Shown here: piece by piece, positions 3,201 to 62,000 of the stretch | How positions within the stretch are numbered: the stretch's first letter is position 1 | Layout: the number at the start of each line of letters is the position of its first letter | NCBI GenBank assembly: GCA_963969365.1 | Contig: OZ017760.1 | Span: forward strand, 1,178,001 to 1,242,000 | Reading direction: 5' to 3' | From: Asterochloris sp. CNOR1 | Taxonomy: Eukaryota; Chlorophyta; Trebouxiophyceae; Trebouxiales; Trebouxiaceae | Length of the DNA stretch: 64,000 bases | Notes under the pieces: generated by a model | The model's database searches: none | The model's input: only the letters and a program-made list of their open reading frames with translations | Told to the model about the DNA's origin: nothing | Translations under genes and position numbers: made by a program

Positions 3201-6200
3201 TCATATGCCGTGTGGCAAACAGGGCAGGCAGCCCTGCATGTCAGCACCAGGCTGTCAGACCTGTCTGCAGCATGCTGAGCTGCATGTTTCCATGCATGCT
3301 TTGTACAGCAGGCCAGCAGCCAGCCCTGCAGGCTTCTGCCCAAACACAGTTCGTAAATAGGTTGGGGCACACCCATGTGCAAAGAAGAGGGCATACACTT
3401 TGCAATGTGCGCAGCAGCAGACAGCTCAAGCTGACGTGCCAATCAGCTGCAGGCAATCCACCGTCTTCGTGCCCAGCTTTGCTCAAAAGGGGCACGCAGA
3501 TTCAAGGAAGATCAGTGCTTGAACACGAATTAGATGGGCGTGACGCGTTGCTTGTGCCTGGGGGCATCACATACCCGGTATGGGCTGGAGCTCTTTGGCA
3601 CCCCCATGCTCAGCAGCTGTCACTGCCAAGCAGTCCATGTCATGAGCCACCCTTCTGCATCATGACGAGGTGGGCAGGCCATGACCAGCAGCAGGCACAT
3701 TGAAACTGTGCAGCCCTTGCGTAGCATGCACAAAGGATATGGACTTGTCCCTCACTCCCCACTTTGCTTGCTGGCAGTCCTGCTGTCCATGCACCACAGG
3801 TCAGCGCAGCGCATGACCAGCAGTGTGCACCTTGACGCCCCCGCCCCCCAGCAGTCTATGCACAGCATGCAGAGGGGACAGATGGTCCTTTGCCAAGGCT
3901 TCACCTGTCAGCTGCGCCGCAGTCCATGCACAGCAGGTGGGCACAGGGCGTGACCAGCAGGAGGCGAGCATCTGCCCTGCAGCGCATGCAGCGTCCACCT
4001 CCTCGCAGAGCGTCCTCCACAAAGCTCATTGGGTGGGCCCCAGGCACCCAGGGGGCCTGGCGAGCCTGCACTCACCAGCACAGCAGTGAGGCCGCCAGGC
4101 AAGGTGGCTGCGCGCAGGCAGGCCTTACGCACGCTCTGGGGGCCGCAGGCACCCAGGGGGGCTACTGCGGCTGCACACACAGACAGCAGGAGCTAGCAAC
4201 GGTGCAGGTGCAGTCTACGCATGCACACTGCAAGATTGGAGCAGTGTCACAGCATCAAGGGATGGCCCAGCTGACATCCACAGCTGGGGCCCTCACTGCA
4301 GCTGGGCCATCCCCTGGCCATTTCAAGGCCACAAGCAATCTGCTTGGGAGCCTCACAGCCCTCATGCTGTCAACAGTGTAAGCGGTCCACCATGGCATGG
4401 GGTGGCCAGGCAGCTCACCATGGGCATAGGGTGGCCCAGACGCTTACTGAGCAGCTCTAGAGTCTCCAGCAGGTCCACCTCCCTCACAGCCAACTCGCAG
4501 GTGCCAGCCACACAGCATGACATCCTGCAGTGGCAATGGCAGCTTCATGTGTTTGAAGGCACTGCAGGCGCTGTCACCACCAACTTGCAGTTGTCAGCAT
4601 CAGAAAGCAACAGTGCCCCCAGCATCACACATGCACTGAAGGCAAAGCTGCAAACGCACTGAACATCCTGCTGCAGCTGCCGCCATGTCTGCATGCAGGT
4701 CCAGCACAACAAAGCTTGGGGCGCCATGCAGCACGGAACCTTGCAAAAGGGCAGCAGACCTGCCACAATACAGAAGCACCGTGGCTCCACTACCCCTGAT
4801 CCCATGAGGCAGCATGTCACTGTCCAGTTCTGCTTTACACATGGCCCCTGATTCAGACCTTGCCGTCCATGGGGCTCGACATGCAGCCAGATGCAATGCA
4901 GGTACCCTGCAGTGCATCCTCTGCTGCACTCCACTGCACAGATGCCTATTGAGTTACCAGATGTTGCACAGGCTGAAGTAAGATGCAGGTACATTGCTCT
5001 GCGCCGCAGCAGCCGACATGTCCGGACCGTTCAGCCAGTGACTTAGGGCCCTATGGCCATGCCCTCACCTGACATTGCGCAGCATCTCCTTGGCCCACTT
5101 GGTGTTGCGCTGGCTGAGCAGGCTCTCGCGGTGGTCCTCGTCATGCCAGTCGGCCAGCAGCAGATTGAGGCGCACCACCTCCACCAGCGCATTATAGCTC
5201 TCAGCGTGCTCCCGGGAAAAGTCAAGCAGGGTCACCTGCAGGGGCACACAACCTTTTGAGGACCAAGTCTCTCCTTCAGCAGGCAGCGTCTGGTGCTCTG
5301 GGATGTAGACTAGAAGATGGCCGAGAACTGAAGGAAGGCAACTTCAGCATCAAGGAGCTGCACTACAGCTCTTAGCATGCTCAGGGAAGAGATTGAGCTG
5401 GGTCACCTGCAGGGGGGCAAGAGGCCTGTTTGAGGGCATGAGGGCTTTCCATTCAGCTGTAGCAAGCAGCACCTGGGGGCAGCTTAAGGGATCAGTAACC
5501 GCAGTGATCTGCAGGAAGCAGATCGAGCTGAAGGATATGTGGCGTCAAGGAGCTGCCCCGCTGCTCCCCACGTGCTCAGGAGACTGGTCCAGCAGTGGAA
5601 GGTGTCGGCTGGCTTGATGTGCAAGTGCTGGATCATTTGCTTTGTGCAAATGCCAGTGAGGGACAAGGCCAGCATGAGATACCCTTGACACACCTGCAAA
5701 AGCATTTGGCTGGTGAGCGGGCAGAAGGCCATTCTGACTGTTTGCTGAAGGCCAGTCCGTGCATCATCCCCTCACCAGAGACAAGGATATTTACATTGCA
5801 CGCTCTGCATGTGCAGCAGACTCAGCCCCAAGCTGAAAAGAGACCTGCTGTGTCTGTTTGTCCAACCACCGCAGCTGACCTTGGCGTGGCAGGGCGGGAT
5901 GGTGATCAGGTCTGACTTGGCGGCCCGGATCATGACCTGCCGCAGAAGATGCATCAGGCGCCACCTGCCTGCACCCTGACGGGCTTCAAAGGGTTTCTGG
6001 ATAGCCTCCTGCAGCGGGGCACCTTTGCCATGAGCGGGCTGGCGGAGCAGTGGCATGCATATTGTCAAGAGTGACACTGATTTCTACACAGGTCTGATGC
6101 CTGGGACTTGGCGCTGTGATCACAGGGTTCAAGATGAATGCTGCTGCAGCCTGGGATACTTGAAGAGGGCTGCAGGGCCATGAGGCAAGGCAATCGAGAA

Positions 6201-9200
6201 TGGGCGGCTAACGCAATTCAGGCAAGCCGTGCGCAGCCTTCAAGCTATGTGAAGAGTTAAGCCTCACAAGTGGAGTGTGAGCAAGTGGACTGCTCAGCCA
6301 CACATGCCTTTGTAAGGAAGTAAGTTGTCCATGCAGAGATGGCATGCATCGAGGCTGCCCACCTCCCAGATGCGGCGCTGCACTCCATAAGGCTCATGGT
6401 GCAGGAAGCTGAGCAGGGGCTGCAGGTGGGACACGTGGGAGCTGTTGGTGGCAGGTGTGGGGGTGCCTGCACAAATGCAAGGCAAGTGTCAAACAGCTGC
6501 AGGCACTGCATCAGGTAGGTGATTGAGACAAGAGTGGGGGCTGGCAGGTAAGAGGCGGAACTGCCTGCACACAAAACAGGTACACAGATGTATGTGTATT
6601 GACAAGTCTCCACACGCCGTCCAGACAGGTCGAGCAACCCGAAAAGCATGCAAAAGCTGCAGGCCAGGGCAGCCCATGGTCAGGTTAGCACCCATGCTTG
6701 ATGTCACCCTGGCTTGCTGGCAGCATCTGCAGGGACCAGGGTGCCGTGAGACCCCAAGGAGTGCCAGGCTTGTGCCCTGAGGTGCCCTGATGCAAATGCT
6801 CAGCCAAGCGCTCAGCCTGCCTTGCCGAGCGCTGAGCCTATAAGGCAGGGTGTAGGGCAGTGATGGACGCCAGCAAAACACTGAGTCAAGAGCACAGGGT
6901 GCATGGATCCAGCAGGGTCCAGCCTTCGGCGTACCAGTCATGATCCACCGGCACTCCGCCCTCAGCGCACAGGCCATCTGCAGCTTGTTAGTGACTGCCA
7001 GCGATGCACCCAGCATGTGGCCCTCATCCAATATGATGCGCTGCCAGTGCACCTGCAGTAACATAGCTGCTCTTCAGCACCTGCATGTGTGTTGGCGGCG
7101 CTGCACAGGACCAGTCAGTGCACAGAAAGGTGCTTACTCTGAGAAGCTGAGACCCATCAGCTCTTGTTTGCTTCCTGGTAAGATACAGATTGTTGCTGCA
7201 TCCTACTACATGATGGCTATGTGAGCCTCACGCTGTAAAGGACTCAACCGTTAGTAAACAAACCCTATGTCTAGAGCAACCAACTCAGAGCTGCGTCACA
7301 AAAACCCACCTTCAGCAGGGGGCTGTCCTTGCGCCGGGCCCAGCTAGCACTCAGCTGCGTGAATGTGGTGATGACTACATGATAACCCCAGGCCAGCTCA
7401 TGAGCTGCAGCCGTCTTCTGCTGCTTGGCCTTTTTGCCCTGCAGAGGCACCTACATGAATACTCGTGCTTGCATCAGCCCCTTACAGCTGCTTGAGGCCA
7501 CTGCAGCCAAGCAGATCGACCTGCAAGACCAGTAGCCAATCTGACCCAGCAGCGGCCCAGAACATGCAGCAAACAAGCACCCTGGGTACCTGCCAGACGC
7601 TGATGGTGAGCAGCATTAGAACAGAGCTAGAGACGAAGGTTGCTGCAGAGGCACAGCATGAGGAACCTACTGCTGTCCATGCACCATCGCTCAAGGACAA
7701 AGTGGGATGTGCACCTGCCGTCAGGCACACATCTTGCAGGCTTTGCTCGGCTATACACAAGGGCTGGAATTCACTGCCAGCAACACCCAGATGGACACCA
7801 GGGCACAAAACTGACCTTGGCTTGGCTGACAGCTGCAGCCTCACTTTCATTGTCAGCCTCTCCATCCACGGCTGTCTCCAGCTCGCCGCTGGTGTCTGCC
7901 CCGAAAGTGGTGAGCGTGCAGCCGCCGGCGTTGTTGCCTTGCAGCACTGCCACATGCAGGCTGCCCGGCTGCAGGTGCTGCCTGATCTGGCACAGCCAGT
8001 GGGGCACCAGCTCCCTGGGGAGCACCACCAGTGTGGCACGTGACATGTAGATGCGCCTGCCCTCATCAACAGGTCCTGCAGACAGTGGTGGCTGCTCGCT
8101 CGCTGTCGCTTTGTGCCTGTTAGTCATGAGAGATTAACGTGCTATAGCCTGACCCTCGCTACGAGGACGTGCAGGCAAAGATGAACTTCTGGTCTGCTTC
8201 CTCCTGACCTTGTTGCTCATCTGCTGCTGAACTTGTGCTCAGGTGTCAACAGAGCTGAAAGAGAGCCGGCATGCTGCAAGCTGTCCTTGTGAACAGGGCC
8301 TGCTGGCAACATCAGCTGCTGCTCTGCTTCTTGCGCTCAACGGAGCTTCCATGCACAACACATAGGCAGTGGCTCAATGAGACTGCCATCCCTGCTGCAG
8401 TAGACCCACGGAAGCATGCTGCAATCCCAAACAGGTGAGGTCCATCATTTCAGCCCGCTCACAGCAACAAAGCCTCTATTTAAGACCACCAAGGACACGG
8501 GCATGACTATGGACACAGGCACGGCTGCCGCTGAAGGGCATGAATTTGATGCTGAAGAAGAGCAGCCTGTGCGCTCATCCAGCCACCATTCACCGTCCTT
8601 GGTAGGTTGTTGAGGACAAGCTGAGGCGCTGGTGCGTACAGGGGACCCATTCACAAGGTTACCTGACTGCAGTGCCATCTCCAGAGCCAGCAGGTCCATG
8701 CGCAGGCGCCCCACCCACCAGGCCTGCTGCCAGGAGCCATGTCCTATGCCCTTGGCAGCAGCAGCAGCTGCCTCTGCAGCCTTGTTCCTGCGCCCCCCGC
8801 TCTGGGGGGGCAGCCCAGCAAACGCCCCATCCAGTGCGCTGGCCCCCTTGCCGCTGCCCTTCCTGGGGACCCACTCCAGGAACAGCTTGGCCAGGAAGGA
8901 CTGCCAAACCTCAGGCGGGCGGCGATGGTCCTTGGGCACTCTGATGCCAGCCAGGAAGGTCTGCAGCATGAGCACACTTGACATGAAATTAAGGCAAGGC
9001 CAGGGGTGCGTCAATGCCCGCAGCATGAGTGACATCAAAGGGGAGCTGAAAGCAGACAAAATTGCGGCAATGGGTGCTGTGACAACTGGCCCGCCCAACA
9101 CTGGCATGCCCTGCTCAGACTTCGCTCACATCGCAATTCTGCTTGGACAGCCACCAGGCCACAGAGGCCCAGTCTGTGACCAGTGTGGGGCAGTCCCTCA

Positions 9201-24340: not shown

Positions 24341-27300
24341 ATGTCCATGCAGGCAGGACATGGCCTGGCCAGCCTGCTGCAGCAGCTGGACGAAGGCAAT
24401 TCCGGACAAAGGCTGCGGGCACTGGGGAAACTGCAGGTAAGGTCATGTCTGCTGCGAGCCTATGCACTAGTGTTTACCTTATTCCTTGTCACTGTCTCAG
24501 AGCCTCCTGGGCAGGAGGTCCCCATGATACACAGGCTGCTGCTGCTGGTGCTTGGCACACACCAAGCGCTGGCAGTAACAGCTGACATGCATGCTCCAGC
24601 AGCAGTCTCACATTCTCCTGGCAGCCTCAGTGTCCAGCAACCAGCTGCAGCTTATCATGTGTTGCAGGGATCCTTGTTGTCACAAGCATGGGGCCGCTTC
24701 ATCATTCTTCGTGTCCTGCGCAGCAGCTGGCTTTCTTCATAAGGACCTCACAAGGCGTTTATTGCCTCGCTCGTCTGCCAAGGATTCCCTTCTGCCTCGC
24801 ATGGCACCTGTAGCCACACACTCTGCCCAAGTCATGAAAGTGGCGCAGTCACAGCATGCCAGTGCTGCTGGGGGTGCCATGCCTCAAAGGTGCTGCTGCC
24901 CCTGCAGGGTCAGCTGGAGTCTGGACAGGTCATGCCCCAGGACATGGAGGCGGTGGCTGCAGCAGTGTCAGGGGTGCTTCGGGACGCAAACCTTCAGGTG
25001 AGCAAGCAGGAGGACCATGCAGCTGGGAGGAGTTGCAGGCTGCTGTGAGTTGCAGTCACCCACTTTAGGCCGTATGGGTGGCCTGAACATATCAAAGCTG
25101 CAGCCAGACAGAAGGCTCCATGCTGCAGGTCAGCTTGGCGGCCATCCACACACTTAGCTCATTGCTGAGCTGGGCGGGACCTGCCCTCGGGTGCTGCTGC
25201 CAGCGCTTCCTGCCTCCTCTGGTGAGTAGCTGCTGCCTTTCATTCTCTGCTGAGCTTGTGCTGGCTTCATTGTGTCTGTGCTTTGGGCCTTGGACTGGCG
25301 TCCCGGCCTCTGTGCTAGGTGTCTTGATGACCGTCTCCTGGGATGTGCCAGCCCTGCCTGACTGTGCCAGACGCTTTGGGCACTGAGCGTATGTCTGAGA
25401 CCATGTGGTGCTCCCTCACAGCCTGCAGTCAGCGGAAGCATGGCAGCTGTGCCCAGGTGCAGTGCGCCAACCACACTGAGGTACTCTATTGGTTGCAGAT
25501 TGAGCGCGCTGGGGACACCAGGCACAGCCTGCGCGAAGAGGCAGCTGCAGTGCTGGCAGCTGTGCTGCAGGCAAGTGTGCACCTCCAGACTGCTCAGAGC
25601 TGTGCGTTTACTCTGATGGTGCGGCAAAACCTTTCAACAAAGCTTTCACCGTCCACTGATTGCTGCTGCTCATGACTTCATGGTTTGGCAGTAGGTGTTT
25701 GTGCTACATTTCTTGGTGAGAATCATTAGATGCCCAGCAGCAACAGGCAGCGTGGCCTGTGCCTCATCACATGGCGCGTCGTGCAATCCTCCCCTGCTGA
25801 AGCTGGTGGCGCTGCCCAGAAGGCAGGACAGCCAGCGCCATTGCTGACCAGTCTATGCAGGCTGCTCATGTTGACATGCTGCCCACGCTGCAGGTGGTGG
25901 GGCTGACGGTAGCACTGCCCAGAATGGAGGGCAGCTGGCGCCACCCCAGCGCACGCACGCGCGCTGCCTGCGCCCATGGGGTAACGCAGGCCTTGGCCGC
26001 AGCGCCAGCAGCAGGCAGTGCGAATGCAGCGGCCTGGCAGAAGGACCTGCTAGAGCCGCTGAGTGGGCTGCTGGACGACTCCAGCAGGTGAGGTGTACTG
26101 CATTGGGGGTGTTCCTGCTTGTGCTGCTTGTGACAGCAATACTTTGGCTGGTGAGCTGCTGGAGCTGCTGAGGGGCCTGCTCAACGGTGCCAGCAGGTGG
26201 CGAAACATGTGTCTGAGCCGCAGTGGTAGGGCGGGTGCCTGACAGTTGCTTGCCTCTTGCTGCCCAGATCTTGGGGTGTGCCCCTTCAGGGGCACATTCT
26301 CAAGCCATCAGCTGGCTGCAGAACTGAGCTGCTGGGTGGGCTAATGGACCACCACGCAGGTGGGCCTGGGCAGTGTCCAGGGTAAGGGCTGTGGATCCTT
26401 GGGGTGCTTCAAGGACTGCAGCAGACTGAGCGGGCTGCTGTAGGCTTTCAGCTGGGAGGACCTCGCCCTGGGACTATGTGCCTTTGAGGCGGGTGGTACA
26501 GGTGACAGGGTGCTCTCAGCATGGAGACCTGCATGAGGCCGCTGGCAGCCTGCTGGACAGCTCCAGCAGGCAGGCGTGGAGGGCAGGCGATGTTACAACT
26601 GCGGTCTACGGGGTGAATGCGCAGCTCAAGGACTGTATCAGGGTGGACAGGTGCATGACAGCCTGCTGAGACAGGACTCGCAATGTTACGGCACAGGAAG
26701 AGCGCCGCAGCTCAGGCAGCGCCGGCGGACCAGCACCTCCGGCATCATGCCGCCAGCAGGCTCCCTCAGCAACATCCCAGCAGGAGACTTGGCACTTCAA
26801 GCGGCCTGGGGTGGTATGCGGCCTGGGGTGGTATGATGTGAAGACCAGAGCTGCGCCAAAGGGAGGGCCTGTCCTTGCTTTGAGGCTGCTGCTAGGTTGC
26901 TGATGTGCACCTGATCTGCTGCGCCCGTGCATGGCTGCAGCAACGCCGTGGGCTGCTGTGAGGGCTGCATGCTGCAGCAGCACCCATTCTAGGCCTGAGG
27001 GTCACATCGTTGCAGCAACTATAAACTTTTCCAACGCCTTCTCTAGCCAGTGATGTATACCTGGCTCATGCTGTGCTGCAGCGGCCTGAGGGACGCAGCG
27101 CTGGAGTGTCTGGAGGAGGTGCACCGCCACCTGGGCGAGGCCCTTATTCCTGCCCTGCAAGCGCTGGACGACCCTCCCCGCAACCTGGCCCTGCTGCAAG
27201 CCAGGCTGCAAGACGCCAGGGGCGCATCCCTGCATGAGCCCAACCTCCCGGCAGCCAGCTCCCTCAGCGCTGCCCTACAGCAGGAGCATGCCATGCTGCT

Positions 27301-30300
27301 GCTGAGCCAGGGGAGTGCGCCTGACACCACTGGCAGCGCTTACATCGCTGATGCACTATCAGACAGATCTGCAGAGGTGGGCTGTGTACGTGGTGGGTCT
27401 TCTCACATGCCGTTCAACCTCACCATACATCTTTGAGCTGCATGCTGTTCATCCAGACAACTCCGGGGAGCCGCGATGTGTGCATCAAAACATGTCAGCA
27501 CTACCGCAGCTTGTGCAAACGCATGCTCACTGGGGATTTGAGGTGCACCCTTGCTGCGTGCTGCACTCCTGCTGTACCTGGAAAGCTGTTCTTCGGTTTG
27601 AGAACTTTGCAGGCGGCATTGCAGCTGCAAAATGAGCAGCTGGGCGCTGTCGTACAGCTGGCAGGAGGTTCTTTGGTGCTCTGGTGGTCTGAGGCATTTG
27701 CTCTGCATCCTGCCCTGTAGACTCACCACGCTTGCTGTGCAGCGCCCTGAAGTCCCTCGCGGCTGATTTGATGCAGCATCTTTGTTGTGTCCTGCCCTGC
27801 AGACCTCACTCAGCTCGCCATGCAGCACTCTGGACTCCCCCCCCCGGCCGAGCAGCAGGCCGGCCTCCAAGGCGGGGAGCCTGCACTGTGGGGGTGGCCT
27901 GAGCTGTGACCTGGCAGGCAAAAGCGACGTGGCCGCCTCTGCCAGCGGCAGGGGACTCATTGCTGCAGCCCAGCCTGCCCGGACAGGCGCTCGCAAGGGT
28001 GGTTTCCGGGTGGGTGGGCCCAGCATGCTTTCTTGCCATGTTCTGCTGTCAGGCAGGGTGAAGCAAGCCCTGCATCATGCGCCTAGGCCTGGGTCTGGGA
28101 CCCAAGCTGCCGAAAGCTGGCAGCCAGCCCCGAGCTTGGGATAACATAAGCAATTCAGCAATGAATTCCAAGCAGCCAATTGGCCGCGTTGGTTGCTGCA
28201 AAGCTTGCCAGGTAAGGCGCTTGAAAGAGGGCCTTGTGGGCATGTGGCCTTGTTTGGCAAACCTCGTGCTGCCTGTTGCTAGCAGGTAGACTCATGTCTG
28301 CTGTGGCAATGAGCTACAGCGCACATGCCAGTGGGGGCTGGCAAGCAGCCAGCATGCGTCTCTATGCTCATCTGCAGGCACTGTGGCTGCAGGACACCCC
28401 ACCAGAGCTGGTCAACCTGCATGAGGCATTGCCCTGCATGTTGTAGCCACAATCCATGCTCCTGACCTTGCATTGTAAAGCCTTTTCGGCATGACTATGG
28501 GAGCTTGGTTTTGCCACCTTAGGCAGCATAACGGCATGCCTGCTGTGTCAGAGCGTGCTCTGTGCTGACCTCAAGGCTGCTGCCTGCAACATGGGAACCC
28601 TGCAGGGACTTCCTCATGCTTTGGCCACCTGTTGTCTTTGACACGCCTCGCCTGGCCAAATGCCAGCCATCAGTGGCCGCCCCAGTCTCGAGAGGCAGCC
28701 CTGCAATGTCACAGCCAGCCCTGGCTTGTCTGAGGGCTGCTGTCTGTATGATGCTCAAATCATCCTGCCAGCTGCAGGCAGCGTCTTTCGTTACTGGTCT
28801 CAACCCATGCCTGTTGTGACAGGACTCTGGTGGTGAGCCGCCGCCACCAGCAGCCACCCCAGTGGAGAGCGAGCGGGACCTGAGGCATCACCTGGAAGCC
28901 CTTGTGCCTCAGCTGGATGAGAAGCTGGACTGGACCAAACGGATTGAGGTGCGTCACATTTGAGGCTTTCCAATGGATAGCTGCCACCCCGGCAGCCTCA
29001 GCCACCATGCCACACCCCAAGTGTTTGTACATTGGGCCCACACTGGAGAGCTTGATGTAACAGGGCTTGGTTCCGGAGTTCATCTATCCTCCATCGGTCT
29101 TGGTCAATCCGTCTCTGTTGCTCTGTCAGGCCTTGGTTTGACATTGCAAACCAAGTGGTGGGTCGAGAAATGTCTGATATGGTGGGAGGCAGCCTGAGAA
29201 GGTATCTCTGCCAGCAGCCTATGCCCGCAGTGTGTGCTCTGCCACTGCTGTTGCAGGCTGCTGCATGCCGTGAAGCCCATGTCAAGACCAGAAGGCTCAA
29301 GATACCTCAGTGCACCAGCATGGTCGCTTCTGAGGGCCTCTAGCCAATACTTCGTCTGATAACAGCCAATGCCATGCTGTCCCTGGCTCTGCAGGCCCTG
29401 CTGCGGCTGGAGGGTCTCATTCTCGGCAATGGAGCCAGCATGGACTGCTTCCCAGACCTCATCAGGCTGCTAAAGGACCCCCTTGCTGTGCAAATCAATG
29501 ACAGGTGAGTACATCACTGCTTTCCCTTTCTGCACAGACCAGTGTGCTTTTAAGACTCCACTCTAGCTTGCTGCAAAGTTGATTACATATAACTTTGCTG
29601 TAATGCCCACCTGACGGAGACCAATGATGGCTCCTTTCTACATGTATTGCCTGCAAGGTGACTGCCTTGGACATGGCTGCGCTTGCTGGCCTGCTCCTGC
29701 AGGCGGTCAGCGGTGTCAAAGCAGGGCTGCCATGTGCTGGGGCTGCTGGCAGCTGTGCTGGGCAACCGTGCGGAGTTCCTGGCGTGTCATTTCCTCCCCA
29801 TGGTCCTCAAGATTGTGGCCATCACCGTGCAGGTTTTTCTCTTGACTCTGGGTGTTGAGTAATGCTGCACGCTGTTGGGTCTGAGTGTGGTGCACTGGCT
29901 TCAGAGGGAAAGGTTGGCCTGGGACTAAGTGCCCCATGTCTGCCACAAAGCCATGACACGCTTCCCAGCCTGATCGTTCCAGCATGTGCAGTTGCCTGAG
30001 CCTCAGCACCACAAGTCCCTCCATCATTTTTTGATGTTGGTCCTATGTACCTGCTGGCCTGCTGATAGCAGCTTGGCCTCTTCTCCTGGGCCCTGGCTGC
30101 CCGGCTAAGCAGCACAGAGTGGCCTTGGCCTACGAAGCTGTCTTTAAACGGCAGAATGGGGCTGGGACTCGGCCGCCCTTAGCCTGCTCATCAATTGGGC
30201 ACATCTGCCATTCAGGTGGTACATAGCTGCCCTCCTCTTCTGCAGTACAGCTGCCCATCAGTTGCCCAAATTCGGCACTCAAGCAGCTGAAATACATAGC

Positions 30301-36300: not shown

Positions 36301-39300
36301 TTACCGTGCAATGGATGGGCCCACTCTGCTGGCCCACATTGCGGCCGCCAGCCCCACCGAGCAGGCAAGCCCAGCACTTCAATCTGTGTATGTGCTGCCT
36401 ATGCAGCAGGGAAACATCAATGTGCACCCGTGTCATGTGTGCTGAATGGGCCTACCCTGATAGCCCACCAAGTAGGCAGATGCCTATCCTTGGGGCAAGA
36501 TGTGTTGGGCTATGCTGCTGGACCACCTTGCTGGCACACACTGCAGCTGCCACCCTTCAGAGCAGGCATGCTTGGGCCGCTTGTAGGTCATCATCATGGA
36601 ACACCTCAGCAGTGCAGTGTAACTCATCACATGAGTCAGAGTCATAGCTTTGCCTGACCTCACACAAAAATGCAGGTTTATTCCCATCTGCAGATGACGC
36701 TGTGCTGGACCCTGCAGCCCGGGGACCCCCAGCCAGCAAGTTGTTTCTGGTGCCTAGTCTTGAGACTGTACTGCGCAGGCTCTGCTGCACGGCACACCCC
36801 AGGCATCTGGGCTTGGGTGCTGTTGCCCTGCAGATTCTGCTGACCCATCCTGCCAATCCTGACTCTAACAGACACTCTGTCCAAGCACCTGGCCACAGAG
36901 GGCTCTGCTGACCTGCATCACCAATCTGGAAGCCCAGACAGGTTTGCAGGAGCTGTCCCAACACTGATCACTGCTGTGCCTACAGATGACATTGCGGCGG
37001 GCTCTGCTACCCAGCATTCCTCATCTGGACTCCCAGATTGCTCAGTATGGGCGCATGAGGAGCCGTGGCAGCCCTGCAGTGCCTGGTCAGAGGCTCAGTG
37101 TCCAGGCCAGACTAGCTGATGTGACCAGCCCAGCTGGGCGTTCTGGGGCACAGGAGGCTGCTCCTGGCTGGCTGCCACGTGCTGAGGAGCTTGAAGAGGG
37201 ACATGCAGGTGAGGCCAGGGGTGGTGAAGGTGGCCTGCCTGTGAGAGCTGCCTGGCTGCCTCACTGCACACCCTGGCGGATAAGTGAAGCGGGCAGGGCG
37301 CGTAATCCGCTGCTGAGGTCAGCATCCTGGCTTGTCCGGGAGCGCTGGCTGGAATGCATCCTATGAGAGTGCTGACCACCTGCAAGACCTGAATCAAGTC
37401 CCAACACTTCTGCAGAGTCGCAGGACGAGAATGGACTAGCCGGTGTGGTCAGTGAGCAGGATGGGTGCTCTGAGAGCATCAGACCAGCAGCACCAATGCC
37501 TGAGGAGCAGCAATCCAGGCAGCCCCTGTCTCAGCTCAGCAGGCAGCCGACTGCCCTGCTGCATGCAGAGCAGCAGCCTGCAGTCATTGCCAAGAACGAA
37601 TGTGGTGCAGACAGCAGGCCTGCCAATGCGACCAGGCAGCAAGCAGGCAATGGTGAGAGAGCTGAGGGCGCTTTTTGATGCAGCCACATGGCCGCTGGTA
37701 GCAGCCTTCTGTGTGTGGTGGAGGCAAACCACAGCTGTGTGCTTTGCATGTCACTCAGGCCGCTACATGCTGTGGGCAGTTACCATTTTGGGCTACTTGC
37801 ATGCCCAAAGCCTGCCACAGGTGAAAGGTCCAGCTACATTTGCTGGCAATGAGCCTTATGACACAAGACTGCATGTGTGCCTATGGCTGCAGGGGCTAGC
37901 AGTGGTGCTGTAAGTGCGGCCATCTCAGATGCTGCAGCAGACCAAGATGTGGCAGTCATCCAGGCACACGTATCAGGGGCAGCAGAGAGCAGCCGCGCTG
38001 CTGCTGCTGCCCCTGCCGCACAGGCCCAGCCTGCCGGCCCTGCGACCGACAGCCATGAGGGGCCTTCAGCTGCTGCTGGAGTGGAAGGCAGCCCCAAGGC
38101 AGCTGCGCTTCTCCACAGCGCACAGCGTGCCATTGCAGGGCCTACACAGGCGGCCACAGCACTGGTGGGGAAGGCTGCAGCTGCCGGCCTGGGCTCTGTT
38201 GCAGCCTCTTCAGGTGGTGGCACCCTGCGGTCTGCAAGCCAGACTCGGCCTGTGGCCGCATCGCAGAGTCACGTTCTGACAGCTGCAGCAGGCCCAGCCA
38301 CCTGCATGGCCCCTCTTCCCAGCAGCCTGGCGCTGAGCCCTGCTTCCCTAGCTGTGCTGGGGCCGCTGCGGGGTGTGCAGCTGAGCCTGGAGGGTGCAGC
38401 CCCTGGCATGGCAGCTGAAGCACTGGAGGCGGCCCTGCAGAAAGCAGATGCTACTGTCTCTGGGGAGCTGGCCCCCCGAGTGATGGAGGAGCTGGTTGCC
38501 GCAGCCCAGGCAGTGCCTGAACCAGTGCTGGCAGCCAAAGCTCAGCAGGTGGGCCATGGCATGGGAGCATGTCCCCTCGACCGCTGCAATTTGCTGCTGC
38601 ACTTTCTTGGTGTCAGCGGCGCTGATGCGCCATGCATTTGCCTATGATCTGTCAGCCGTCAGCAGGATGGCAACCTGCAACGGGCAGTCACCGCATTTGC
38701 ATGCACTGCAGTTCACTGCATGCCTGAACGGCAGCTAATGCTCCTGGCAGAGAAAGTCAGCTGAATGGCTCAGCTGCCACCTAGGCCGCCCTGCAGGTCA
38801 GCACTAGGCTTGAGAGGCAGCGCAGCAGCTGCTCTCTAGGCCATGCAGCACCTGAGCACTGCTGCGCACCTTAGCATCCCTATCTGTCCGGTCGGTCAAG
38901 GATGTGCCCTGGCGGTCAAGGATGTGCTCTACAGGCGGCTTGAGAGGGATGCTTCAGGGGCCTGTATCCACGTTCAACTTGCAGGTTGAGACTGTGTTTG
39001 ACAGGCACCATGACAGCGGCAGCCTCCAGCGCTAAGAGGCCTGCATCCACGCTTGTGCTGCAGGTTGAGGCGAAACTCCACAAGCAGCTTGACAGCGGTA
39101 GCCTGCGGGCTCGGCATGCAGCCATGACGGCGCTGCATGACCTGGCCCCCAGGCTGGGGCCTGCCCTGCAGCGCAGCCTGCCGCGCCTGGTGGGGCGCCT
39201 GCTGGACTGCACCAGCGAGCCCAGCCGAGAGGTGGGCCACTTTCGTGTGCGTGTCTGGGCTGGGGACCTACATGCACACCTGCAGTGATGCACCAACGAG

Positions 39301-40698
39301 GTGAGCCAAGAGGTGAGCGGTACAGAGCACATGTCGGGGCTGGAACTGCTCTGGTGAGAGGCAGAGCTGAAACACGTTGCAGCTGAGTCTGCAGCTGACA
39401 CAATTCGCAGTGTTTGCAGATGTGCGCAGCAGCTCATGATGCACAGGGCACTGCTGCTGCGCCATGCATGTCTTCCTCCTTGCCCCCTTCCCTGTGTAGA
39501 CTGCCATACACCAGACATGGCTCATTGTCGTGCAAGTGTCTGCAGACCTGGCCAGTGCGAGCGCTGCTGCCTGCGCTGCTGTACAGCTGAGACGGCTCAC
39601 TGTGGTGCAGGTGTGTGCAGCTGCTGATGATGCTGTAGGAGCGCTGCTGCAGCAGGTGCCGGCGCCCTTTGCTCTGGAGCTACTCAGGCACAAGCTGCCC
39701 ATCCCTGGGGCTGCTAAGGTTGGCGTTCCAGAGGCCGCTGTGGTGCAGGTGATGCATGCACCACTCAGCTTCTGCCTCAGGCTCCTCCCTGGCCTTCAAA
39801 GTTGACTGACGAGGCCCCAAAGTTGACAAGTCACATTCTGGACGGCCTCGAGACCTGGTAAGCCTTGATGTTGTGTCAAAGCTTGATGAGGCCCGACGAC
39901 CTCAAGGCTTGATCATGCTTGTGGGCCTAACTCCGAGGTATGGTTGCCTTGAGATGCAATGCTTGGACACAAAACATCGCCATGGTAGCGTGCCCCTCTG
40001 GCATGAGTTGGATGGGCTCATGGCTTCCTTGACTACTCTGCCTGCCCTGTGAAGACTTCTGGCTGCACCTCTATGACAAGCTAAAGTGCAGCCTGAGCAC
40101 ATGTGGACGCTTGGGCTCAGTACTGCCTTGGCAGTCAATGCAATGACCTCCAGTGCTGCTCACGGCTGCAGGCTGCCACCAAGCACATCGGCCGCGTGAT
40201 CAGCCGCATGCCAAGGGCAGAGGTCATGCCACTGCTGCAGCCGCACCTGCTGCCGGGCTTGTTTGAGGCCTTCAAGCACGCCAGCGCTGATGTCCGCAAA
40301 GCCACCGTGTTTTGCCTGGTCGACCTGTGGCTGGTGAGCTGCCCTCACTGTGCACCTTGTACAGTGCAGCTCGTGCAACTATTTCCCTTGCATCATCTTT
40401 TCATGCACTACATGGTGTTATGCTCAACGTTTGTCACCCTGGTTCAACACATATGCACGCATCTTCGTGTTGACATACCCACTGCTGTGCTAGGCATGAC
40501 CCCAGCCAACGCATCTCTGCAGACAGGCTGGTGACTGCCTGCTGCGCCTTTAAAACGTGAAAACCCTCGCTGCAGGTCGTTGGGGAGGCACTCATGCCGC
40601 ACCTCGCACCTCTGAGTGTCTCTCAGATGAAGCTCATAACGATCTATGTAGATCGCCGGCAGCATCACATGCGAGCCAATGCTACAACAGCGCCATAG
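24341..40698 (+). CDS. CLASP: CLASP, microtubule-associated TOG-domain protein
   Basis: CLIP-associated protein that binds tubulin through TOG/HEAT arrays and stabilises microtubules at the cortex and in division (family knowledge). Resolved exons: 24341-24436, 24908-24997, 25129-25221, 25499-25570, 25894-26087, 27082-27376, 27803-28009, 28823-28948, 29395-29504, 29703-29832, 30384-30527, 31017-31242, 31814-32017, 32762-33229, 33937-34032, 34381-34498, 34848-35007, 35714-35881, 36217-36364, about 37893-38549, 39064-39231, about 39611-39748, 40172-40333, 40576-40698. TOG1 is exons 1-6 (GLRDAALECLEEVHRHLGEA); TOG2 is 28823-31242 (LDWTKRIEALLRLEGLILGN). A Ser/Arg/Gln-rich linker follows, then a third array. 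The C-terminal blocks LFEAFKHASADVRKATVFCL and SQMKLITIYVDRR match plant CLASP ends. Three to four introns use GC donors. Some linker exons (32018-32760, 36365-37890) are unresolved. ATG 24341 starts a typical CLASP N-terminus; ATG 24347 is possible. Confidence 0.92.
26038..26576 (+). repeat. Exon-edge echo, four to five copies after CLASP exon 5
   Basis: The exon 5 end and donor (26038-26092, with GTGGGCTGCTGGACGACTCC then AGCAGGTGAGG) recur in the intron at 26147-26200 (GGGGCCTGCTCAACGGTGCC then AGCAGGTGG), 26313-26370, weakly at 26410-26445, and at 26524-26576 (GGCAGCCTGCTGGACAGCTC then CAGCAGG). The spacing is roughly 100-170 bp. Confidence 0.75.
34960..35215 (+). repeat. Exon-edge echo, CLASP exon ending 35007
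   Basis: The exon end GATGCCAAGGAGGGGCTGCG is echoed at about 35170 as GACGCCAAGGAGAGCCTGTG. The copy has an in-frame TAA just before it, so it is not a usable exon. Confidence 0.7.
36305..36570 (+). repeat. Exon-edge echo, CLASP exon ending 36364
   Basis: The exon end GATGGGCCCACTCTGCTGGC (followed by CCACATTGCGG and GAGCAGGCAAGC) recurs at about 36443 (GAATGGGCCTACCCTGATAG) and about 36515-36570 (GCTGGACCACCTTGCTGGCA, then GAGCAGGCATGC). Confidence 0.75.
38955..39125 (+). repeat. Exon-edge echo, 5' edge of CLASP exon 39064
   Basis: The last 27 bp of the intron plus the exon start at 39064 are duplicated 79 bp upstream. GGCCTGCATCCACGCTTGTG with GCAGGTTGAG (real) pairs with GGCCTGTATCCACGTTCAAC with GCAGGTTGAG (copy at 38985). 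Both continue to GACAGCGG(T/C)AGCCT. A weaker third copy starts near 38790. Confidence 0.75.
39205..39320 (+). repeat. Exon-edge echo, CLASP exon ending 39231
   Basis: The exon end ACTGCACCAGCGAGCCCAGC with GAGAGGTGGG is followed at about 39288-39318 by ATGCACCAACGAGGTGAGCC with AAGAGGTGAGC. Confidence 0.6.
39519..39660 (+). repeat. Exon-edge echo, 5' edge of CLASP exon near 39611
   Basis: GGCTCACTGTGGTGCAGGTG (39594) is the intron end and exon start. A copy 75 bp upstream at 39519 reads GGCTCATTGTCGTGCAAGTG. Both continue to GAGCGCTGCTGC. Confidence 0.75.
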
Positions 40699-48100: not shown

Positions 48101-51100
48101 ACCTGCCCCGCTCAGGAGGCACTTAGCACTCCAGGGCACCAGTGAATGAACTCTTGCAGTCCCGCCTGCTGGCATTAACCGCAGGCTACAATCTGCTCCC
48201 TGTCATCCCATGTGCATGACACCACAGTGGTCTGCTGCAAATCTATCTTGAGCCTGTTCTTTCTTTGTCTGCAGGGGCATGGTGGAGTCTGCCTTCGAGT
48301 TTGCCAACGTCTGTCGCGAGGCCGACTTCCACAACTTCCTGTTCTCCATGAAGGCCAGCAACCCGCTGGTCATGGTGCAGGCCTACAGGCTGCTGGCAGA
48401 GGAGATGTACCACAATGGATGGGACTACCCCATGCACCTGGGGGTCACAGAGGTGAGCTGTGCTGGAGTTGCAGCGCGGACCAGCTTGGGCAAACTTGTG
48501 GTGCGGGGTAGGGATGTGGCTTGGGTCAGAACCAACAACAGCGTTCATCAAGTGCCCCTCTGCCTGCTGACTGACTTAAGGGATGGCCGCGCTATGTCCT
48601 GCACTTGGGGGGTTCACAGAGGCGGGCTTTGGTGGTAACATAGAGTTCTGTGCAATTCAAAACCGCCGCAAGTCAAAGAGTTCCTACAGACCGGAAATCA
48701 GTGTGGTTCGTAGCGCAGGGCAGGGCTGCTTGGTTTCCAGGCTTCTCTCTGAAATAGGCAGGACAGGGTGAGACACAGGAGGTGCAACTACCCAATGGAG
48801 GGGTGGACATGATTGAGAACCTGTCTCTCCTTGCCACACAGAGCTGGCTCTAGACAACAGTCTGTCTGGCCAGCAGGCAGAGACTAAAGTGGATGGGGGC
48901 TCAGGCCCCACTGTGCATGTGACTGACAACCATGGGGAGGAAGGGAGCTGCGCCGTCCATGCTTCTTCCCGCAGCCTCTACCTCCTGTGCTGCAGGCCGT
49001 GCAGAACATCAGGGGATGTTGTGCAATGCCAAGCAGGGCCTGCAGCTTGGACAAAGCCATCTGCTGCGGACTGGTGTGGGTCAGAATCCTGTGCTGGAGG
49101 TCTGCAGGCTGTGCAGACCAGCAGCGGAGGGTTTTGGCAAAGCCAGATGGAGCCTTGTCCAGACAACTCATGCTGAGGCAACACCCCCGCTGCAGGCTGG
49201 AGAGGGGGAGGATGGCAGGCTGAAGAGCGCCATTGGCATTGGCTCCCTGTTGATGGACGGGCTGGGTGATACTATCAGAGTGTCACTGACAGAAGACCCC
49301 GAGTACGAGATTGAGCCCTGCCGGTGAGCTGCAGCACTCATGGTGCCAAGTGGGTGCTGGACAGTGTCAGCACTGCTGGTGCGAGGCAGTCCTGCCAATG
49401 AAGCTGGCTGCTGCCCACTGCGCCCTCGAGTGCGCCACGGCACCCACTCCGTGCTGGAAACCAGGCCGGGCTGGGGATGCAGCAGACTGTTTGTGTAGCC
49501 GCAGCAGCTGCTAACTGGTGTGTCTGTTGGCGTGACCTGCTGTTGGCCTGGCTGGGTGGTTGCAGGGCCAGGTGGGGATGGTGCAGGCAGTGCCTCCTTG
49601 CACTGGTGCGGCCAATGCAGTGCTAATGGTGTGCCCTTGGTGCTTGGACAACCCTGCTTGCTTCCTGGGCCCTGTGAAAGCTGCTGGCGCCTGCAACAGC
49701 ATCTGCCATGTGTAGTGGATGGAGCATGACAGCTGGATGCATGATGGGCGCAAGATGGGTCTGCCTGCCACAGGTACCTCACATGGATCTGCCCCTTGCA
49801 GGCAGCTGGCAAACCTGGGGAGCACAGCCCGCCAGCAGCAGTGGGGCATTCAGCCCTTCGACGAGCGGCATAGGGACAGCCACAGCTTTGCGCGCCGTAC
49901 TGGGCGGCTGCCAGAGCAGAGGGAGGAGGACTCAGTAGACTACAGGGGCCTGCTCCACAGGGATGGCACCGTGCTGTCGCTGGTGACCCTGGAGGTGAGG
50001 AAGTGTGCCCCTGAGGAGGATCCTTGCAGTTTTGAACATGGTTGTCGCTATGACAATGGATGCGAGGGGGAGTGCCAGATTGCAGCTGATTGTCTTGGGT
50101 CTGTCTTTCACCACAAGGACCCTTGCAACACGGGAGCTGCTGTGGTCAGATTGCAACCATGCTGCTGCCCGTGAACCTGGAGGTGATAGGCTGCTCGCTA
50201 AAGGGCATTCATAAGGAACTACGCAGGCCGCTTGAGATGAGGGGTGGCCCTTCTTGTCTGTGGTGCTGCAATGATCGGACCCTGTCACTGGGAATCGCTC
50301 TTGGAAGCTGTTAAGATCTCAGCTGCCGCCCTTGGAGTCGTTTGTTGGAGATCTGGGCATGTAGCCAGATGAGGGCATGTAGCCAGATGGGAGGTCAACG
50401 CAAGGTGCAGATATTGTCCTTTGCAGGGTCAAAGCTGCCGCTTCATGGAGATGGGTGCCCAGACAAGCAGGCAGCATGCTGATGCTGTTGAAGCCACTAC
50501 CTGCGGCATCAAAGCAGTGCCTGCAGTTCATCAGCAACTGCACATTCTGGAGTGCTTCTGGCACTTTGAGGCTAATTGCAAGCACAGAACAGCTGGAGAA
50601 GAGTGAACTGCATGTGCCACCATAGGCAACGCTTGCACCGCCAACTTCAAGGTCCTTCCTTGTCTGTGCAGGACCTCAAAACGCCGGAGCAGCTGTACCG
50701 CAAGCTTGGCTGCAAGCTGGCTGTGGGGATGCCCTTCAAGGACATTGCAACCTCAGACACCCTGTACCTGCCCAGGTTGCCGCCGGCAGACGACAAGGAG
50801 GCTCGCAGAGCGCTTATCCGCCTGCAGGTGGGCCGGCAGCACAACCCAAGTGCTTGTGAAGGACCAGCCAACGTGCTATGTGCTGTCTGGCTGACGTCTG
50901 GGCTGACCGGGGTGCCAGCAAGGGGGACATATCTGTGTTGTACCACTGCAGCACCGCCGCAGGTGGGCATGAATTTCCTGCCAGCTGGTGCGCTCACTCA
51001 TGTGACAGCCAGTGCCTGGGTTGGCCTCCATAACAATTTCCTTGCTGCAATACAGCATGGTAGACAGCCAGCAGGCTTGGCTACCTGCTTTTGTGGCTTG

Positions 51101-59000: not shown

Positions 59001-62000
59001 TGGGCAGGCGCAGAGTGGGCGCTGAGGTGGCAGCCGGTTGACAGCCGGCACTGGCCACAACCTGAGGGGCGGCAGCAGGCGGCAGGCTGGCCCCACCTGC
59101 CAACTCTGAGGCAGCCTTGCCACGAGCCCCCTTCATGGCTGAACGTCGTGGGCCTCCCGCAGACAGCAGTGGCCCCAGCTCCGCCACCCCTGCCACCTCA
59201 GGCAGTGGTCTGTTGACCTCTGGGCTCCCAACGCCCAGCTGGCTCAGGCTCTGCCTCCGTCCTAGGCCTGCCATCGGAAGCTGTGGCCCCTGTTCAGCAT
59301 GGTCCAGCTCAGCTGCCGGCCTGCCAGCTGCTTCTCCTGGAATCCCAACAGGCCCTAGGCCGCTGGTGCCTGGCTTGAAGCTGAGATTCCACTTCATCGT
59401 AGCCTGGCCAGGCAAGGATGATGGCAGAAGTGACCCTGACTGAGCGGCTCCTGAATCAGCACCTGGCCTGCCGCCTGCCTCTGGGCTGCCTTCAGCCAGG
59501 CTGAAGCTGAGGCTCTTCTTCAGGGGTGGTTGCCAGGGCCCTCCCGCTGATGCCTGCAGCCCTAAGTGAGGTATCTTCAGCTCTGGCAGCAGGCCATCAG
59601 CCCCTGGGCTGCCTCCTGCAGCCTCAAAGCTGAGGCCATGCTGCCTGCGCATCGCCTGTGGTGCACCTGCCTTCGTGGCAGCAGCACCATCGCTGCTTCC
59701 CGGCGCATGCCAGGCCACATCCTGGAAGGGGTTTGGCCCCAGGTGCACGCCTTTGGCAGCAGCAGCATTGCTGCTGCTTGCCACCAGCAGGGACGCAGCA
59801 GGCCGGAAGGAATTGGGACCCATGTTCAGCTCAGCATCTTGGGCATCCACCTCTGAGGGACTGTGTGAGCCGAGGGCTGTGTTGGGGTGGGGGCGTGGCG
59901 GGGTCTCAACCGTGCCCACCCTGCAGAAACATGGCAGATGCATGCGGCGGCAAGGCCTGCCGAGCTGTATAGTGGACAAGCACGCAGGGTCCAGGCCTAA
60001 CAAAACCGCTGCAGTCCGTGCTGCCAAAGCAGGCTCCCATGTTGGCCAGAGTGCACAAGGACCGACTGCAGGAGCTGGGGGTTCTGGGCAGGGCAGCACA
60101 CCAAGTCGGCGGCACATGCCCTGCAGTACCCCAGGCCTGCCTGGTGTTCCCATGCCACAGCATGAAGCCTCGCAGACAGAGCAAACAGCAGTACACCAGG
60201 CCTGCCTGGTGTTCCCCTGCCACAGCATCAAGCCTCGCAGACAGAGCAAACAGCCCCTTGGAGGCTGCTATGCCAGGCAGTCCCTGCGATGAGCAATGCG
60301 TGGGCCAATGCTGAAAGTACTGCCACTGCCTCAGGTCTGATACCCTGCTCAGAGCAGGTCCAGCACAACCAATGCTGCAGGCCTGCAATGCCAACTGACC
60401 TGTCCAGCACATTGCTCGACCCCTCCACTGCGGCAGCAGCCTCAGCTGCCAGCAGCTGCTGCTGCATGCTGAGTGCCTCGCCCAGCTGTCTCTCTGCAGC
60501 CACAGTCTCCAGCCTCCGCTTTAGCCTCTCCGCAGCCGTTCTGGGCAACTGCTGCCAGACCTGCTGGCTCCCGCCGCTGCCTGCCAGCTCCGCAGGACCA
60601 CCTGCCACAAGGTCAGAGGGCTGTGCCTGCCAGCCCCCTGCAGCCGCCGCCTCCCAAGCCTGCCAGGGGTTGGCATCTGGCTCGGCTTCCAGCAGCTGGC
60701 CGGCAGCAGGCGCTCCTGCTGCCTGAACCCACTGCTGCTGCTGGCTGCCGGTGGCGGGCTGGGCCCCCTGCCGTGGGGCAGCAGCGGCCGCCTGCTCACC
60801 ACTGACAGGGCCCTCTGCATCCGCAGGCAGCTCGTCCCAGGGCAACAGGTGGGCTGGCTCGTCTGGGCCCAGGAATGCCAGGTCCTGGGCCCACCCGCTG
60901 AACACACGGGACCCAGCCTCCCTCAGGTCGAAGCTGCCCCCTTGGAAGAGCGCAGCAGGCTGTGCAGTGCGCAGGGACGCGACCCTGCTGACGCTGCTGT
61001 GCACCCCAGCAGCGAGGTTGAAGCTGGTGCCTCCACGCCCCACAGAAGGCCGTGCGTCGCGGAAGGAGGTGCCAGTGCTGAAGCTGCCGCGGCGGCCAAT
61101 GGTGCCCCCCAGCCGGGACGGGTGATGGGCCGGCGCCTGCCCCTGCATGACAGATGTGTGACACTGTCAGCTTACACGTGGCACCGCTGGCTGAGCTTGC
61201 CATGTGGGCAAGCACCCAGAAGCCGCCCCCAGCCCAGCCGGACAGACGGCCTGCCCCTGTACAGTACATGCCATGGGTGAGAATGATTGCGACACTGTTT
61301 GTGAAGATTGCTTCTTGGGGTCGCCCAGACAGAGGACACTGTGCTGAGTCTGTGAGGCAATTGAAGCTCACCCAGCCCTGGCAGATGGCAAGCAGCGGCT
61401 GATGCAGGGCTTGGACAGGACCTGCAGGGCCAGGAGGGGGCTCGAGTTGCCCACCTGGATGACTCACGGATGCTGTCACAGCGCGTTGCATCCATCTGTC
61501 TGCGTGTGTGCAGCGCCTGCCAGCAAGGTCGCCCTTCACCAGGCCCCCAGGACAGCTACAGGGGTGTCTTGGAACAGCAGCTGCACAACTCTGCAAGAGA
61601 AACACATCGCAAACACCTGTTGCCTCTCAGACCCCTCTCGTCAGGGGGCATGGGCCCCACCGTCTGAAATGCACTGTCCTGGGGCAGCAGCCCACATGCT
61701 GTCCAGGCTCTCTGCCGACCGTGCCAGAGCCAGCCAGGGATGCTGCAGCTGACGCGGAGTCACGCTCAGCTGCATGTCCTCATACACCACTTGATGATGC
61801 CAGGCAGGAAAGGTACCTGCGGGGTGCCCTCCTGAGTCAGAATTTTGACCCAAACGTCGTCCAGGGACACAAGGTGGCCGCCTGCAGCTGGCTGTGCCCC
61901 AGCCTCCTCGGCCTCGGCCAGGGCTGCTCCCTGGCCCCGCCCAGCTGCAGCCCCGCGCTGGACCGCAGGAGACACCTGGCGCGACGGCTCCCGGCTCAAG

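Follow-up and report, generated by a model that had tools for sequence, protein, structure and literature searches.

Why does the end of an exon recur several times inside the intron that follows it? The question is raised by a CLASP gene in a stretch of 64,000 nucleotides from the green alga Asterochloris sp. CNOR1 (GCA_963969365.1, contig OZ017760.1, positions 1,178,001 to 1,242,000 of the forward strand). This whole stretch is called the window here, and positions refer to it unless a locus is named. An earlier note on this DNA had claimed that the exon-5 edge with its donor recurs three to four times in its own intron, that other loci show the same pattern, and had suggested that introns grow in this genome by duplication of splice-junction segments. 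The copies were detected again at CLASP and at many other junctions in a genome sample. Very probably, frequent short head-to-tail tandem duplications lengthen the introns, and those spanning a junction survive with the outermost splice site in use.

The exons of the CLASP gene were spliced by hand, and the resulting protein aligned to the CLASP TOG structures 4g3a (CLIP-associating protein, E 5.8e-9) and 6mq5 (E 9.2e-9). In both alignments the join between exons 5 and 6 was free of gaps when the intronic copies were omitted. Four copies of the live donor edge were identified in intron 5, starting at 26153, 26326, 26411 and 26526 (Table 1), which agrees with the number claimed before. When the intron was dinucleotide-shuffled 1000 times, the best scores lay at 25 for the 95% point and at 29 for the 99% point, with a maximum of 37. 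The copies at 26153 and 26526, with scores of 44 and 41, thus exceed chance under the shuffled-intron control that the earlier note had proposed. Given its location, the copy at 26326 (score 33) is a strong one; taken singly, that at 26411 (score 28) is marginal. A second null was taken from the sample used for the junction counts, 304 kb of the genome with the window included, cut into 1-kb tiles on both strands (608 printed tiles minus 3 at the locus). The best score of these tiles against the exon-5 donor edge was 33, in one tile, and four tiles scored at least 28. The start of exon 5 (25908-25943) is also echoed, in intron 4 upstream, with a score of 37 compared to a maximum of 29 over 500 shuffles. 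This echo is an addition to the earlier note. A candidate echo of the exon-6 start (26992-27015 vs 27083-27106) was dropped as not significant, its score of 23 being below the 99% point of 500 shuffles (27). Exons predicted by the gene-finder at 26322-26359 and 26452-26650 lie on or beside donor-edge copies, a trap for automatic annotation.

Table 1. Position, strand and basis of the features in the window
Feature	Positions	Strand	Basis
CLASP exon 5, from which both echoes derive	25894..26087	+	gene-finder; protein alignment to 4g3a, 6mq5
CLASP intron 5, host of donor-edge array	26088..27081	+	gap-free exon 5-exon 6 alignment to 4g3a, 6mq5
CLASP exon 6	27082..27376	+	gene-finder; protein alignment
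Live donor edge (exon end and GTG), to which the copies align	26044..26090	+	local alignment
Donor-edge copy, 79% identity, lag 109, CAGGTG kept	26153..26199	+	local alignment, score 44
Donor-edge copy, GCAGGTG kept	26326..26362	+	local alignment, score 33
Donor-edge copy, marginal taken singly	26411..26459	+	local alignment, score 28
Donor-edge copy without GT (GCAGGCAGG)	26526..26570	+	local alignment, score 41
Echo of exon-5 start, in intron 4 upstream, 81% identity, lag 103	25805..25840	+	local alignment, score 37
Donor-edge echo of exon ending 39231 (other junction)	39279..39318	+	score 31, weak
Donor-edge echo of exon ending 49994, lag about 188	50149..50186	+	score 33
Tandem duplication, intron-only per gene-finder labels, 65 bp x 2, 95-96% identity	60123..60254	+	67 columns at lag 65

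Such similarity might arise by chance in CTG/CAG-rich DNA, or from coding similarity between HEAT protein repeats. The composition is biased, a segment of the CLASP protein matches HEAT below the cut-off (19.7 bits against 23.5), and the exon-6 echo, like the copy at 26411, lies within or near chance. However, the shuffles and tiles, the dependence of matches on lag (see below) and the 22 matches in own introns vs 0.20 in length-matched foreign ones all speak against this explanation. It is very improbable, and for the class as a whole it is ruled out.

The wider comparison was based on gene models predicted by a small gene-finder trained on the sequence itself, in loci coded L004, L005 etc. 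Exons scoring below 8 or shorter than 50 bases, introns shorter than 120 bases and exons at most 60 bases from the end of a stretch were excluded before counting; the end-distance filter reduced 263 donor and 265 acceptor junctions to 258 and 260. Each exon edge (50 exon bases and 8 intron bases) was aligned to its own intron and to length-matched foreign introns as a control, and a score of at least 30 was taken as a match. Donor edges matched their own intron in 22 of 258 cases (0.20 expected) and acceptor edges in 25 of 260 (0.15 expected). The junction echo pattern is general in the sampled genome, beyond CLASP, and alignment to the own intron is far above that to unrelated introns, the comparison that the earlier note had set. 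Among stricter exons (score 15), 17 of 136 donor and 20 of 141 acceptor edges matched, and in the window alone the counts were 7 of 55 and 4 of 54. Farther inside the exon the signal was nearly lost: bases 50-100 away from the edge matched in 1 of 146 donor and 1 of 152 acceptor cases. One acceptor-edge array, at positions 1787-2145 of locus L018, contains three intronic copies of acceptor and exon start upstream of the exon at 2112. CTGCAG is kept in all three, one of them is 91% identical, and one was made an exon by the gene-finder.

The matches were direct and one-sided. No reverse-complement edge match was found among the 258 donor and 260 acceptor edges, and on the wrong side of the exon there were no donor edges in upstream introns (0/238) and no acceptor edges in downstream introns (0/236). 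Direct, one-sided matches in own introns are not what introners or another transposed element would leave, although these would also place repeated sequence within introns. A 901-base query across the CLASP region was compared with the 56.4-Mb, 21-contig genome, and self was the only match listed. Common words are skipped in this search, which is not expected to pick up a lone 45-base copy of 79% identity. The privacy of the copies to their junction, which the earlier note had proposed for these families, therefore rests more on the foreign-intron controls, in which matches to exon edges occurred at only 0.20 per 258 (donor) and 0.15 per 260 (acceptor). We give almost no credence to a transposed element as the source. 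The side of the matches also bears on tandem duplication of whole exons followed by decay, which would put edges on the wrong side too. One clear case exists, at positions 6184-6987 of locus L014, where tandem units of about 400 bp, each with intron and exon, are 78-79% identical. As a general cause, whole-exon duplication is disfavoured because the matches are one-sided, and it is very improbable.

The distances between copies point to tandem duplication of short units. Both the window and a 190-kb sample showed an excess of ungapped direct matches (19 of 24 bases) at lags of 50-350, highest at 75-150. In the window they were back to background (well below 1 per 25-base bin) by about 350; in the 190-kb sample a thinner excess persisted until about 475, above a background of roughly 1 per bin. 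Inverted matches showed no comparable excess, with 8 at 50-100 bases vs about 3 per 50-base bin farther out. Pairs with strong short periodicity were excluded, and the 5-95% range of unit sizes was about 60-320.

In the clearest cases the two copies abut. The acceptor pair of locus L010 has 121 aligned columns (56 intron and 65 exon) at a lag of 119, and the pairs of L005 and L011 have 64 columns at lag 64 and 100 columns at lag 100. Together with the duplication at 60123-60254 of the window, these make 4 of 10 near-complete pairs whose ends overlap by 0-2 bases. Some older junction pairs still cover most of a unit, such as those at L004 (107 columns, 10 bases between copies) and at the window exon 39064 (71 columns, 9 bases between copies). 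Acceptor pairs were alike into the intron, with a mean extension score of 14.5 vs 2 in controls; donor pairs were hardly so, their mean score of 7.4 being due to L015 and L005. At positions 545-744 of L015, three near-identical 68-bp tandem units lie over a predicted donor in a doubtful gene model, and an opposite-strand reading frame beside them looks, by eye, reverse transcriptase-like. At CLASP itself, the first copy is alike over 47 columns at lag 109, with 62 bases separating the copies, so that the core alone is alike. Tandem Repeats Finder reported six arrays in the window, and the CLASP donor array was not among them. By extension from the clearer cases elsewhere in the sample, we infer that the CLASP copies are also of tandem origin.

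A simple scheme would account for these data. Short head-to-tail tandem duplications, mostly of about 60-320 bp, would be frequent inside genes. A duplication over a donor would give an exon tail and intron head followed by a second exon tail and intron head. If the 5'-most donor remained in use, the protein would be unchanged and the second copy would become intron. Acceptors would be the mirror image, with the 3'-most acceptor remaining in use, and the intron would be lengthened by one unit per event. Successive rounds next to an existing copy might then build an array such as the one in CLASP intron 5, where the 5'-most copy would be the one spliced. The intronic copy would decay neutrally while its exon partner is held by selection, and copies of exon edges would therefore remain recognisable longer than intron-only copies. 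The source may be break repair, by fill-in of staggered breaks and end joining.

The decay of the copies is in accordance with this scheme. When 45 junction pairs were pooled, the first, second and third codon positions were mismatched in 87 of 572, 78 of 565 and 120 of 567 cases (0.152, 0.138 and 0.212), a pattern that fits a neutral copy facing a constrained exon. The splice dinucleotide was kept in 11 of 20 donor copies (GT) and 10 of 21 acceptor copies (AG); where it was kept, the live site surpassed the copy in strength at 8 of 11 donors and 8 of 10 acceptors. Clear coding or splice-site constraint on the copies was absent from these pooled counts. The copies might instead be alternative or mutually exclusive exons, or splice decoys maintained by selection, and the strong sites retained in some of them, the L018 array with CTGCAG in three intronic copies and the copies called exons by the gene-finder would suit such a role. 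However, the mismatches are those expected under free decay, the live site is usually stronger, and CLASP aligns to known structures with its copies omitted. A functional role of this kind is thus improbable.

Whether duplication is directed to junctions can be judged from the copies elsewhere in genes. At a score of 30, local copies were detected in 85 of the 1035 windows on junctions, in 304 of the 6066 in introns and in 66 of the 2318 in exons; at a score of 40 the counts were 44 for junctions vs 106 for intron interiors. None was found in 473 intergenic windows at a score of 30, where the gene-finder calls too little intergenic sequence to conclude. Of 204 pairs kept, those scoring at least 34 were of the junction type in 66 cases, intron-only in 52, exon-exon in 9 and unclassed in 4. 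Arrays contribute repeatedly to these counts, and exons missed by the gene-finder may be hidden among the intron-only pairs. A neutral simulation of unbiased tandem duplication gave a junction to intron-only ratio of 2.38, compared to 1.27 observed. It assumed an exon rate of 0.35 of neutral, uniform ages and tolerance of all single-junction events; unit sizes were taken from pairs without a strong exon, and units with more than one junction were set aside. The neutral model yields more junction pairs than seen, therefore junction targeting is not needed, and part of the junction-spanning events seem to have been lost.

A junction-directed process, for instance one linked to splicing or R-loops that copies exon edges into introns, would explain why local copies are commoner per window at junctions than in introns. 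It would also explain why matches cluster in the terminal 50-70 exon bases and why many donor copies stop at most 8 bases from the splice site. However, the sharp donor ends also follow from two neutral branches decayed past detection, the clearest cases are plain tandem units running through the junction, and the 52 intron-only pairs and the neutral ratio argue against it. We consider such a process unlikely. The claim that introns grow by duplication of splice-junction segments was thus upheld in part. Recognisable local copies made up 10,037 of the 191,043 predicted intron bases (5.25%), and therefore local duplication does lengthen introns, but a junction-specific process is not needed for it.

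The surviving pairs differ from the simulated ones in shape. The intron part, from junction to copy, was at least 37 bases in 44 of 45 pairs, the exception being L015 with 8. With L015 apart, the lower limit was 37 bases for donors; for acceptors it was 38, the next values being 51 and up. The exon part exceeded 80 bases in 2 of the 45 pairs. Among simulated survivors, 30% had an intron part below 37 and 33% an exon part above 80. A duplicated acceptor may have to carry its own branch point and tract, which leaves the similar donor limit unaccounted for. More tentatively, and with some doubt on our side, junctions might act as a ratchet. Duplications would be tolerated only if the outermost site is used and enough intron is included (about 37-50 bases or more), so that introns only lengthen. 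With an unusually high duplication rate in this lineage, much of the intron sequence would have been built in this way, as one of its main sources, and a datable fossil would still be present at about one in ten junctions.

Several observations weigh against tandem duplication with survival of the outermost site. All gene models are predictions from DNA alone, and in five later loci outside the training set only 1 of 43 donor edges matched, with 3 of 43 acceptor edges. The per-window rates favour junctions over intron interiors, an excess that we attribute to slower decay. The other 6 of the 10 near-complete pairs overlap by -18 to 9 bases, with the triple at L015 set apart. Past the junction, 2 of 20 donor pairs stand out (L015 and L005), joined by L004 in a second extension. 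In most older junction pairs, CLASP included, likeness is limited to the exon-edge core instead of covering the unit, and the CLASP spacers resemble each other no better than random pieces do. Finally, the shortage of short intron parts (below 37 in 1 of 45) and of long exon parts (above 80 in 2 of 45) shows that a filter or breakpoint bias exists beyond the plain model. As to the gene models themselves, the trained splice motifs were sharp (donors CAG/GTGAG and acceptors TGCAG/G, the slash marking the splice site). Known families were found in three of six scanned gene-finder proteins (Aa_trans, Plus-3 and WDR19) and no family match in the other three. The predicted Rpn11 protein of locus L011 had its top score with PDB entry 8amz, presumably a plant proteasome; its extra 13-residue stretch and 27 additional N-terminal residues are probably model errors. 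The acceptor motif in the trained model was unusually strict, with T 94%, G 96% and C 98% ahead of AG.

The origin of intron sequence is usually untraceable, and a selected exon edge keeps old duplications legible. Because that edge is held by selection, the rate, the sizes and the survival rules of intron growth become measurable in one genome. From the near absence of survivors whose intron part is short, the same genome would also allow an estimate of the intron length that a splice site needs.

Introners are intronic repeats in algae, as are the repeats described here. Unlike introners, the copies in this genome are local to each junction, and no dispersed copies were found in the word-skipping genome search or in foreign introns. 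Small tandem duplications from break repair are reportedly the subject of plant nick-pair and rice work. In the human genome small tandem duplications are reported to be the commonest short (<100 bp) insertions, and the paper that traces them to repair of breaks with complementary overhangs hints likewise for plants (PMC8355091). The duplications here are also direct, local and head to tail, but their typical sizes (about 60-320) exceed those given there.

In the intron gain of Rogers and Hellsten, an exon segment containing AGGT is tandemly duplicated (as related in PMC4974935 and PMC2891723), and intron gain by exon duplication is described in Drosophila (PMC2891723). As here, the AGGT-type duplication is a tandem one whose unit contains splice sites. 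Such gain makes a new intron, whereas the unit here straddles an existing junction. The corresponding layout was looked for among the sampled introns: at a score of at least 30, the exon tail matched the 3' end of the intron in 2 of 575 and the intron head matched the head of the next exon in 5 of 575 (0.1 and 0.2 expected). All seven hits listed at a score of at least 28 were flanked, on one side or both, by an exon scoring at most 4.9, and they are likely echoes miscalled as exons.

Among the titles and beginnings of abstracts listed, none described genome-wide junction copies in decay, which is weak evidence of novelty since subscription papers were mostly outside coverage. The closest case found is the RdRp gene of potato, in which a tandem duplication over an intron-exon junction gave rise to a new intron and to additional exon sequence, and an 83-bp tandem duplication lies within the first intron of the same gene (PMC4974935). 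The junction-spanning tandem duplication is common to both systems. In potato there is one case and it made a new intron; here the copy lies inside an old intron and decays, at roughly one in ten sampled junctions. The underlying mutation is of a common, known kind, and the Asterochloris genome holds an unusually clear record of intron growth by it.
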